Below are positions 1 through 3,074 of a stretch of 64,000 nt of DNA, piece by piece (position 1 is the first letter of the stretch; each line of letters opens with the position of its first letter). Position numbers and translations under genes: made by a program. The stretch covers positions 62,001 to 126,000 of the forward strand of contig DASXUQ010000002.1 of the NCBI GenBank assembly GCA_036504735.1, given 5' to 3'. This DNA is from a bacterium (lineage in GTDB: Bacteria > Electryoneota > RPQS01). Under the pieces are notes generated by a model that was given only the letters and a program-made list of their open reading frames with translations, was not told where the DNA came from and did no database searches.

Positions 1-780
1 GGCGTCGCGGTCCTCCTCGGCTCCTGGGGGATCAAAAATGCCTTCGGGCGGGCAAATGTGATCGAGGTTAAGGTCCCGGTCAAGCACTCCAGCCCGGAAC
101 TGCGGCACCTGAGAATTGCCTTAGCCTCCGATTTTCACGCCGGGGTAATTATCGGCCCCAAGGAAATTGCCCGGATGTCCCGCCAGATCATGAGCCTCAA
201 GCCGGATATTATCCTGCTTCCCGGTGACCTCGTGGACCGCAGCGCCGATGACATTATGCATCTTGTCGATTCCTTCAAGCTCATGCAGGCGCCGCTGGGA
301 ATCTACGGCACCACCGGTAATCATGAGTACTATGCCGGGTTGGAAGGCGCACTGGCCTTCTGCAAGGCGGCGGGCATACAGATGCTGATGAATGAAAAGG
401 TGGAACTGCCCAACGGTCTGGTGATTGCCGGCATCGAAGACCGTACGGCAATCTCGATGCACCGCTCACGTCCCAGCGTGACACAGTTCCTCGCGGATAT
501 TCCTGCCGACAAGTCGGTGATTCTGATGAATCATCAGCCGGAAACCCATGAAGCCCTCGAAGCGGGCAAAGCGGGAGCGGACCTGGTGGTATCGGGACAT
601 ACCCACGGTGGGCAGATTTGGCCGTTTACACTTCTGACCAAAGCTACATACCGCTTCCAGCACGGCTATTACAGCTTGGACGGCAGCGGCCATATTATTG
701 TTTCGGACGGTATCGGGAACTGGGGTCCGCCCATGCGGTTGAAGGCCCCGCCGGAAATCGTCCTGATTACTCTGGAGTAA
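1..780 (+). CDS. Metallophosphoesterase, membrane-anchored (5' end outside window)
   Basis: Calcineurin-like phosphoesterase of the YkuE/YaeI type; in characterised relatives these are membrane-associated and hydrolyse lipid-linked or small phosphoesters. The metal-ligand motifs appear in order: DFHAG, GDLVDR, GNHE, NHQPE and SGHTHGGQ. The frame is open to base 1 and reads a hydrophobic stretch (VAVLLGSWGI) just before the catalytic domain, so the true start lies to the left and the GTG at 58 is only an internal codon. The stop at 780 lies 3 bases before the ATG of the YHS ORF, so the two are probably co-transcribed and translationally coupled. The substrate cannot be told from sequence. Confidence 0.88.
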   Translation, partial: GVAVLLGSWGIKNAFGRANVIEVKVPVKHSSPELRHLRIALASDFHAGVIIGPKEIARMSRQIMSLKPDIILLPGDLVDRSADDIMHLVDSFKLMQAPLGIYGTTGNHEYYAGLEGALAFCKAAGIQMLMNEKVELPNGLVIAGIEDRTAISMHRSRPSVTQFLADIPADKSVILMNHQPETHEALEAGKAGADLVVSGHTHGGQIWPFTLLTKATYRFQHGYYSLDGSGHIIVSDGIGNWGPPMRLKAPPEIVLITLE

Positions 781-783
781 CCG

Positions 784-960
784 ATGGAAGCGCGCAAGAC
801 CTTAGATCCTGTGTGCGGGATGGAGGTGGACCCCCTTTCCGCCATGTATACCGCGACTTATAAAGACGAAACCTATTACTTCTGCTCGGCGTCATGCAAG
901 GAAAAATTTCAGGCAAACCCTGAGTCCTTCGCCGGCGGAGGCACCTTCCCAAAACTGTAG
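784..960 (+). CDS. YHS-domain protein, 58 aa; zero-frame product of a copper ATPase recoding site
   Basis: A short ORF with a complete YHS metal-binding domain: DPVCGMEV near residue 8, then YYFCSASCKEKF and NPESF. It starts at an ATG 7 bases after a GGAG Shine-Dalgarno that lies in the end of the preceding gene. YHS domains of this type normally form the N-terminus of CopA-like ATPases or exist as free metal chaperones. Here the zero frame stops at TAG 958-960, but the -1 frame continues without a stop into the copper ATPase, whose own frame has no start codon between its upstream stop (921) and 1005. I infer two products: this free YHS protein and a 763-residue YHS-ATPase fusion made by -1 frameshifting. 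Confidence 0.8.
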   Translation: MEARKTLDPVCGMEVDPLSAMYTATYKDETYYFCSASCKEKFQANPESFAGGGTFPKL

Positions 961-993
961 ACTCCGCCGCAGAAGAGGCAGAGGCGGCGGAGT
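937..993 (+). promoter_or_regulatory. Putative programmed -1 ribosomal frameshift signal
   Basis: Four elements in standard order. An internal Shine-Dalgarno GGAGG lies at 937-941. The slippery heptamer C CCA AAA lies at 948-954, in phase with the zero frame and fitting X XXY YYZ. A 6-nt spacer (955-960) includes the zero-frame stop. A perfect 10-bp G+C-rich stem pairs 961-970 with 984-993 around a 13-nt loop. Slippage puts the ribosome in the frame of the copper ATPase. Known precedents are dnaX (internal Shine-Dalgarno plus hairpin) and E. coli copA, which uses a CCCAAAG site to make a short copper chaperone. The alternative is a one-base deletion in the A run (mutation or assembly error). 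Confidence 0.75.
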
Positions 994-1004
994 ACTTCTG
1001 CCCG

Positions 1005-3074
1005 ATGCACCCCGAGGTGGTGTCGGATAAGCCCGGCGTCTGCCCCAAGTGCGGCATGGCGCTGGAACCGCGCGCCGCTCTCGGCGCCGAGACGGAAGGA
1101 GAATCTTCTCACACCCGCAATCTGCGGCGGCGGTTTCTGGTTTGCCTGGTCCTGACCGTGCCAGTGATGGCACTGTCCATGCTCGACATGGTTCCGGCCT
1201 TTCACGGAATGCTTGCGCCACGGCTGAATGCTCTCCTGCAGGCCGTATTGACTGCGCCGGTGGTGCTGTGGGGCGCGATTCCGTTCTATTACAGCGCGTG
1301 GGCCGGACTGAAGGCCCACTCCACGAACATGTACACGCTGATTAGCATTGGCGTGGGTGCGGCTTTTCTGTTCAGCATAGCGGTGCTGGTTGCACCGCAG
1401 ACCTTCGCGCCATCGGCTCACGGGATGCTGCCCGTGTACTTTGACACGGCGGCGGTGATCACCACCCTGATCCTGCTCGGGGAATGGCTGCAACTGGTGG
1501 CGCGGGGTAGAACCTCACAGGCCATCCGCCGTCTGGCCGGCTTGCAGGCCCACAGCGCGCATGTGGTGCGGGACGGACAGGAGATCGAGGTGCCGCTGGT
1601 AAACTTGCGGCTCGATGATCTGCTGCGAATCAAGCCCGGCGAGAAGATTCCCGCCGACGGTGTGGTGGTGGAAGGCAGCGCACTGGCCGATGAAGCGATG
1701 ATCACCGGAGAAAGCGCGCCCGTGCGCAAGACGGCGGGGGATGCGGTGATTGGCGCCACCACCATCAGCGGTGGAACGCTGTTAGTCCGGGCCACGAAAC
1801 TTGGCAAAGATACGCTGCTGGCGCAGATCATCCGGTTGGTGGGTGAGGCGCAGACCTCGCGCGCCCCGGTGCAGAAGCTGGCCGACCGTATTTCAGCGAT
1901 CTTCGTTCCGGCGGTGATGGCCGTGGCCGTTATCACGTTTGCGGCATGGTCGCTGTGGGGACCGGATCCGCGCGCGCTGCACGCCCTGGTCAATGCCGTG
2001 GCCGTGCTGATCATTGCCTGCCCCTGCGCGCTCGGACTGGCAACACCCATGGCCGTCACCACGGCCGTGGGGCGCGGCGCGCAGATGGGAATTCTGATCC
2101 GCAACGGCGAAGCCCTCGAGCATGTCGCCACCGCCACAGCGGTGGTGCTCGACAAAACAGGCACGCTGACGCTGGGCAAACCGCAGATTGTGTCCATCCA
2201 TGCGAATGGCGGCGCGGGCGAACAGGATGTGCTGTCTCTTGCCGCGGCGGTGGAAGCCTTCTCCGAGCATCCTCTGGCACAGGCGGTGCTCGATGCTGCC
2301 CGCGAGCGGCAGATCGCCCTGCCCAAAGCCGAGGCCTTTGAAACTGTCACCGGACGCGGGGTGCGCGCGCAAATAAACGGGACCACCGTCACCGTCGGCA
2401 ATCGCGCCTTCCTCGAAGAGAATGGCATTCACGTGGGAAGCGCGCGTTCCAACGGGAACGGCACGGAGATTCGCGTGGCCCGGGACGGTCAGGAAATCGG
2501 CGCGCTGTACGTGGCCGATCCCGTGCGGCCCACCACCCGCGCGGCCCTCGACAGCCTGCGGCGGATGGGGATCGACATCATCATGGCCAGCGGCGACCGG
2601 GAAGAGACGGCGCGCGCCGTGGCAAACGAGCTGGGAATCGAGCGGGTCTATGCTCCCGTGCTGCCGGCGGACAAGGTGAAGATCGTGAGAGATTTGCAGG
2701 CGCAGGGAAAGCGCGTGCTGTTTGCGGGGGATGGAATTAATGATGCTCCGGCACTTGCACAAGCCGATGCAGGCGTGGCTATGGCCACAGGAACCGACAT
2801 TGCGATGGAAAGTGCGGACATCACTCTATTGCGCGGCGATTTGACGCGGCTGGTGGAAGCCATTGATCTGGGCCGCCGCACGCGCGCCATTATCCGGCAG
2901 AATCTGTTCTGGGCCTTTCTCTACAATACCATCGGTGTGCCGGTCGCCGCCGGCGCCCTCTATCCCGCCTTTGGCCTGCTCTTAAGTCCGGTCATCGCCT
3001 CCGCCGCCATGAGCGTCAGCTCCCTCTCTGTGGTGATGAACAGCCTGCGGCTGAGAAGCGGCGCTGCCCTCTGA
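1005..3074 (+). CDS. copA: Copper-exporting P1B-type ATPase (CopA-like); full protein probably starts at 784 via -1 frameshift
   Basis: ATP-driven export of Cu(I) across the inner membrane. The ATG at 1005 falls inside the heavy-metal-binding motif FCPMHPEVV...CPKCGM and would remove its first Cys, which argues against real initiation there. The frame is open upstream to 924 with no start codon, in line with entry by -1 slippage at 948-954. Visible motifs: actuator TGES (MITGESAPV), CPCALGLATP in the transport helix, DKTGTLT with the phosphorylated Asp, SEHPLA, GDGINDAPAL, and YN plus MSVSS in the last helices, which together mark the Cu(I) (P1B-1) class. It follows the YHS ORF; no copper-responsive regulator is visible nearby. 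Confidence 0.93.
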   Translation: MHPEVVSDKPGVCPKCGMALEPRAALGAETEGESSHTRNLRRRFLVCLVLTVPVMALSMLDMVPAFHGMLAPRLNALLQAVLTAPVVLWGAIPFYYSAWAGLKAHSTNMYTLISIGVGAAFLFSIAVLVAPQTFAPSAHGMLPVYFDTAAVITTLILLGEWLQLVARGRTSQAIRRLAGLQAHSAHVVRDGQEIEVPLVNLRLDDLLRIKPGEKIPADGVVVEGSALADEAMITGESAPVRKTAGDAVIGATTISGGTLLVRATKLGKDTLLAQIIRLVGEAQTSRAPVQKLADRISAIFVPAVMAVAVITFAAWSLWGPDPRALHALVNAVAVLIIACPCALGLATPMAVTTAVGRGAQMGILIRNGEALEHVATATAVVLDKTGTLTLGKPQIVSIHANGGAGEQDVLSLAAAVEAFSEHPLAQAVLDAARERQIALPKAEAFETVTGRGVRAQINGTTVTVGNRAFLEENGIHVGSARSNGNGTEIRVARDGQEIGALYVADPVRPTTRAALDSLRRMGIDIIMASGDREETARAVANELGIERVYAPVLPADKVKIVRDLQAQGKRVLFAGDGINDAPALAQADAGVAMATGTDIAMESADITLLRGDLTRLVEAIDLGRRTRAIIRQNLFWAFLYNTIGVPVAAGALYPAFGLLLSPVIASAAMSVSSLSVVMNSLRLRSGAAL

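Follow-up and report, generated by a model that had tools for sequence, protein, structure and literature searches.

A candidate −1 ribosomal slippage site between a YHS domain and a copper/silver ATPase in a bacterium of the Electryoneota

Recoding and YHS domains in copper-pump genes

The copper-pump gene copA of Escherichia coli carries the slippery heptamer CCCAAAG. According to the accounts of Meydan et al. 2017 given in PMC5009743 and PMC9548414, −1 slippage in this gene yields a short form of 70 amino acids, as compared with 834 amino acids for the pump. The signals that support such events in bacteria have been condensed into search rules (PMC4066793): heptamers of the V_VV.A_AA.R class, which includes C_CC.A_AA.A, are efficient in E. 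coli, a hairpin of at least 7.6 kcal/mol is sought 4-10 nt past the motif, and spacings of 6-17 nt are given for Shine-Dalgarno (SD) stimulators. YHS domains at the N-terminus of Cu/Ag ATPases are already documented (PMC4626032, PMC5552934), SilP being one such pump, and their binding of copper in these ATPases had not been demonstrated as of PMC4626032. An earlier note on the DNA described here had taken a YHS domain in a copper-pump role to be new. This claim does not hold: since YHS domains of Cu-ATPases are known, the domain is not the novelty of the locus, and any novelty would lie in the frameshift arrangement alone.

The analysis concerns a window of 64,000 nucleotides of one bacterial genome, in which a YHS domain and a P-type ATPase lie in overlapping reading frames. 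In the following we describe the layout of this locus and its candidate slippage signals, estimate how often such signals coincide by chance, compare the gene with its relatives and weigh the explanations for the frame break.

Layout of the locus and signals in the overlap

The domain order YHS, HMBD, E1-E2 ATPase and HAD is that of SilP-like pumps, but here it is spread over two frames (Table 1) and not contained in the single continuous open reading frame (ORF) that characterizes this family. The earlier note had claimed such a break between a YHS ORF and a −1 ATPase ORF, and the sequence confirms it in all coordinates. Read codon by codon, the ATPase frame contains no ATG, GTG, TTG, CTG or ATT between 924 and 1004; the zero-frame YHS ORF thus overlaps a −1 ORF without a usable start, as is looked for in bacterial −1 sites. 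Of the two YHS matches in the genome, this locus holds the stronger, and the other falls below the Pfam cut-off. The HMBD codons 5' of the ATG at 1005 still give the family consensus Y-x-C-P (here Y-F-C-P), and no break interrupts the remainder of the frame, which argues that the fused protein is, or until recently was, translated.

Table 1. Features of the YHS-ATPase locus (positions in the window)
Feature	Position	Strand	Remarks
Metallophosphoesterase gene, upstream neighbour	58-780		Pfam Metallophos
SD sequence GGAG of the YHS ORF	774-777	+	6 nt 5' of ATG 784, at the end of the metallophosphoesterase gene; read from sequence
YHS ORF, zero frame, 58 aa, complete YHS domain, terminal CTG TAG	784-960	+	Pfam YHS, 52.4 bits
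−1 frame ORF: HMBD (993-1070), E1-E2 ATPase, HAD; DKTG and CPC motifs; Cu/Ag P1B-type ATPase	924-3074	+	Pfam matches
GGAGG, possible internal SD stimulator	937-941	+	Separated by 7 nt from heptamer base 2
Slippery heptamer C CCA AAA, YHS frame	948-954	+	Read from sequence
TAG stop of the YHS ORF	958-960	+	One codon past the heptamer
10-bp stem, 5' arm	961-970	+	Perfect pairing with 984-993, 13-nt loop
10-bp stem, 3' arm	984-993	+	Perfect pairing; includes GGAG 989-992
ATG, first start codon in the ATPase frame	1005-1007	+	Within the CPMHP motif of the HMBD

The overlap holds every signal that the earlier note had listed, namely GGAGG, the heptamer, a 6-nt spacer and the 10-bp stem, and the class of the heptamer, the spacing and stability of the hairpin and the SD distance all fall within the search rules of PMC4066793. 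The stem begins 6 nt past the heptamer, its first C-G pair 7 nt past, and the predicted folding energy amounts to -22.0 kcal/mol for 955-1004 and -20.1 kcal/mol for 960-1000. In a slip from CCA-AAA to CCC-AAA the Lys pairing would be fully retained. The genome carries tRNA-Lys(UUU) and tRNA-Pro(UGG), which suit such a slip, as well as tRNA-Pro(GGG, CGG); it also encodes tRNA-Lys(CUU), which is relevant to AAG and not to the AAA codon used here. On paper, then, the site works like a programmed frameshift. Transcriptional slippage was set aside, since by general knowledge a run of four A is too short. The genome's own dnaX gene contains no A-rich slippery site, and −1 decoding elsewhere in the organism is therefore unsupported.

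A second P-type ATPase of the same genome (L143; G000:C17:129500-134000) is an intact frame of 838 codons with an HMA domain. It adjoins what by eye appears to be a gene for haem-copper oxidase subunit I, and it resembles a CcoI/FixI-type pump. A TGA that seemed to interrupt this gene proved to be an alignment artefact.

Chance expectation and comparison with relatives

Chance rates were estimated from the same genome, on about 119,000-130,000 codons. An in-frame X XXY YYZ heptamer was counted at 0.2% of the codons and one of the efficient V VVA AAR class at 0.02%; at none of the 24 in-frame V VVA AAR sites of the sample does the sequence downstream fold as stably as here. Perfect stems of at least 10 bp with at least eight G-C pairs, 4-10 nt downstream, were found at 0.003% of codons, and 50-nt folds at -22 or lower at 2.2%. 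Other elements are common: an SD-like motif lies at the right distance for 17% of codons, so that GGAGG alone is weak evidence, and about 56% offer a hairpin that roughly satisfies the published rule. Dinucleotide shuffles of 955-1004 produced a stem of at least 10 bp in 0.02% of trials, and random synonymous codons for the fixed Ala/Glu-rich peptide did so in 3.6%. In the linkers of relatives, stems of at least 10 bp occupy 2 of 5040 positions and folds at least as stable as here account for 4.5%; the fold of 955-1020 taken alone scores z = -1.6, and 16 of 200 shuffles were equally good.

Multiplied over an overlap of about 12 codon positions, these rates put the chance of the full combination per overlap at roughly 1e-3 (any heptamer, stem conditioned on the peptide), at roughly 1e-5 with an efficient heptamer, an SD sequence and a strong fold, and at about 1% in the most lenient case, where any heptamer counts and the hairpin need only come close to the published rule; the lower of these figures overstate the case, because a deletion in an A run itself favours an A-rich heptamer. 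By the same token the raw rate makes the heptamer look more surprising than it is, since the loss of one base from the run automatically leaves four A. The elements nevertheless coincide beyond chance expectation, and to this extent the reading of the junction in the earlier note is supported.

Relatives were collected by tblastn and whole-genome searches, which show YHS-HMBD-ATPase (SilP-like) to be a very common architecture encoded by a single gene; the loci were fetched and checked for both domains in one ORF. All 98 of 98 other fetched genes with both domains, from many phyla, encode YHS and HMBD-ATPase in one uninterrupted frame, and only the gene in the window is split. The only genome of the same family that has the gene (G010) contains a continuous ORF of 798 amino acids with 51% identity, and a scan of genome contigs yielded relatives of at most about 53%. 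In surveys of 347, 349 and 298 genomes from three further phyla, no stop interrupts the matches listed, and the junction mostly lies in long open frames; among the few shorter frames in these lists, which were followed in part, one (L201) runs off its contig end. Among plasmids, the fused N-terminal query is matched over at least 80% of its length, and hence across the junction, at one place in 3207 records, many of which are annotated as SilP. The junction pattern had no match in the viral contigs searched. Heptamers in the linkers of relatives are found at about chance level (20 in 4528 codons).

Conservation of the frame break and its signals, which defines a programmed site, is thus absent at the distances compared (51% identity for the relative of the same family), and the locus is for this reason not classed as an established programmed frameshift. 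The alignment to relatives that the earlier note had proposed as a check speaks against a conserved programmed site of the YHS-HMBD-ATPase family. As judged from these relatives, the ancestor of the gene was a YHS-HMBD-copper/silver ATPase of the ordinary kind, encoded in a single ORF; the fused state is ancestral and the frame break specific to the lineage or to the assembly. For a young, lineage-specific site the same relatives are no test, since they are too distant for a base-by-base comparison of the linker.

Several of the loci deserve mention in their own right. Two intact fused relatives contain an in-frame CCCAAAA, one in the YHS-HMBD linker (L240, position 1668, minus strand) and one inside the HMBD (L206, 1734); slippage at these sites would, in the manner of E. 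coli copA, release a short YHS product. In a genome from one of the surveyed phyla (L182, about 1100-1900) a separate small YHS ORF ends just 5' of another ORF, which shares its frame but begins with its own ATG and encodes several YHS domains and the ATPase, possibly a natural free YHS mini-protein beside a YHS-ATPase. Finally, L255 encodes, starting at 1492, a YHS protein that stands alone: it spans about 99 codons, ends in a long His-rich tail and adjoins no ATPase in the fetched stretch.

Explanations for the frame break and comparison with known systems

With the rarity of a chance coincidence set against a low prior and the missing conservation, we slightly prefer, at a little less than even odds and as a tentative judgement, not a computed posterior, that ribosomal slippage is used at this junction and gives a free YHS domain and a whole pump from one gene. 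In such a scheme a single base would have disappeared in this lineage, the simplest case being the loss of one A from a run of five at 951, whereupon YHS would end at TAG 958 and the pump would fall into the −1 frame. Some ribosomes at C CCA AAA would then slip back one base, helped by the downstream stem and perhaps by the GGAGG upstream. The majority would terminate past YHS and free a metal-binding mini-protein of 58 amino acids, and the remaining ribosomes would read on as ...GTFPK-TVDSAAEE... (junction peptide GTFPKTVDSAAEE) into the whole pump. The selection of slippage as a regulatory device and a role of the free YHS domain as a copper chaperone would be further, unproven steps.

An error of assembly or sequencing would make the true genome one base longer where the assembly reads CCCAAAAC, and the gene an ordinary continuous YHS-HMBD-ATPase like those of its relatives. 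With 19 contigs of up to 1 Mb, the assembly appears to have been built from long reads, for which homopolymer indels are typical. Against an error, a frame-tracking model combined with inspection of candidates revealed no convincing broken gene in 464 kb and 400 kb of the same genome (about 864 kb), at a sensitivity of roughly 70% as estimated from simulated single-base deletions in the genome's genes (84 of 120 detected). The candidate frame breaks it raised elsewhere turned out on inspection to be ordinary neighbour genes with overlapping or nearby starts, and the junction in the window is itself not flagged, because the YHS ORF is short. Zero breaks correspond by our calculation to an upper 95% bound of roughly 5 per Mb. 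Given that the 464-kb part alone includes 567 coding homopolymers of five or more and 2429 of length four, yet no other broken gene, an error at this one A4 run is improbable, though possible; a sequencing error looks less likely than usual, and we regard it as unlikely overall.

A stronger contender, and a quite conceivable one, is a real and recent one-base deletion in the A run that broke the fused gene, such that the pump was lost or is made at a reduced level through a restart at ATG 1005. All relatives are fused, indels are common at A runs, and P1B ATPases often function without their N-terminal metal-binding domains; a restart product would lack the first Cys of the HMBD and retain the membrane and catalytic core. 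The stem might even serve such a restart: its 3' arm sequesters the GGAG at 989-992, which lies 5' of ATG 1005, and a ribosome that stops at 958-960 would occupy the 5' arm and expose this GGAG, thus coupling translation of the two frames. The 12-nt spacing from this SD sequence to the ATG is long, however, and the still consensus-like Y-F-C-P 5' of 1005 implies that restart has not been the sole mode for long, so that only a recent restart would be compatible with it. Nor would a mere deletion lead one to expect a heptamer in the proper frame and a strong stem suitably spaced behind it.

Functional slippage remains the slightly preferred reading. Its most specific form, a lineage-specific programmed −1 frameshift of independent origin in which termination supplies the YHS mini-protein in excess and slippage the pump, reversing the logic of copA, is less likely than not. 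If slippage is real and used, copper-pump genes would have acquired recoding independently at one and the same place, directly behind an N-terminal metal-binding domain, with opposite polarity. Separating such a free domain from the pump would then seem to be repeatedly favoured, and the locus would illustrate how the loss of one base can give rise to a programmed site. If the break is a lesion or an error, the locus is a broken gene of the usual kind, in a family that is common.

Among the described systems, SilP and the other YHS-HMBD P1B-type Cu/Ag ATPases, which are related to the P1B-1a group (PMC5552934), share the order of YHS, linker, HMBD and ATPase with the gene in the window. Plasmid SilP aligns over YHS and HMBD with 36-37% identity, and other relatives reach about 50%; unlike the gene described here, all relatives examined read from YHS to ATPase in one open frame that no stop in the linker interrupts. 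As in the −1 sites of dnaX (tau/gamma) and of the IS3 family, an SD-like sequence, a heptamer, a short spacer and a G+C-rich hairpin follow one another (rules in PMC4066793). Those sites, in contrast, are conserved across strains or families, and the organism's own dnaX lacks one. The closest parallel is E. coli copA, where a −1 shift likewise occurs in a copper-ATPase gene just past the N-terminal metal-binding domain, and where one gene with a heptamer of the C CCA AAR type encodes both the full pump and a short form that binds metal. The domain in the window is YHS and not HMA, and none of the 98 relatives compared shares the arrangement. The polarity also differs: in copA the pump is the zero-frame product, whereas here the short form comes from termination and the pump would require slippage.
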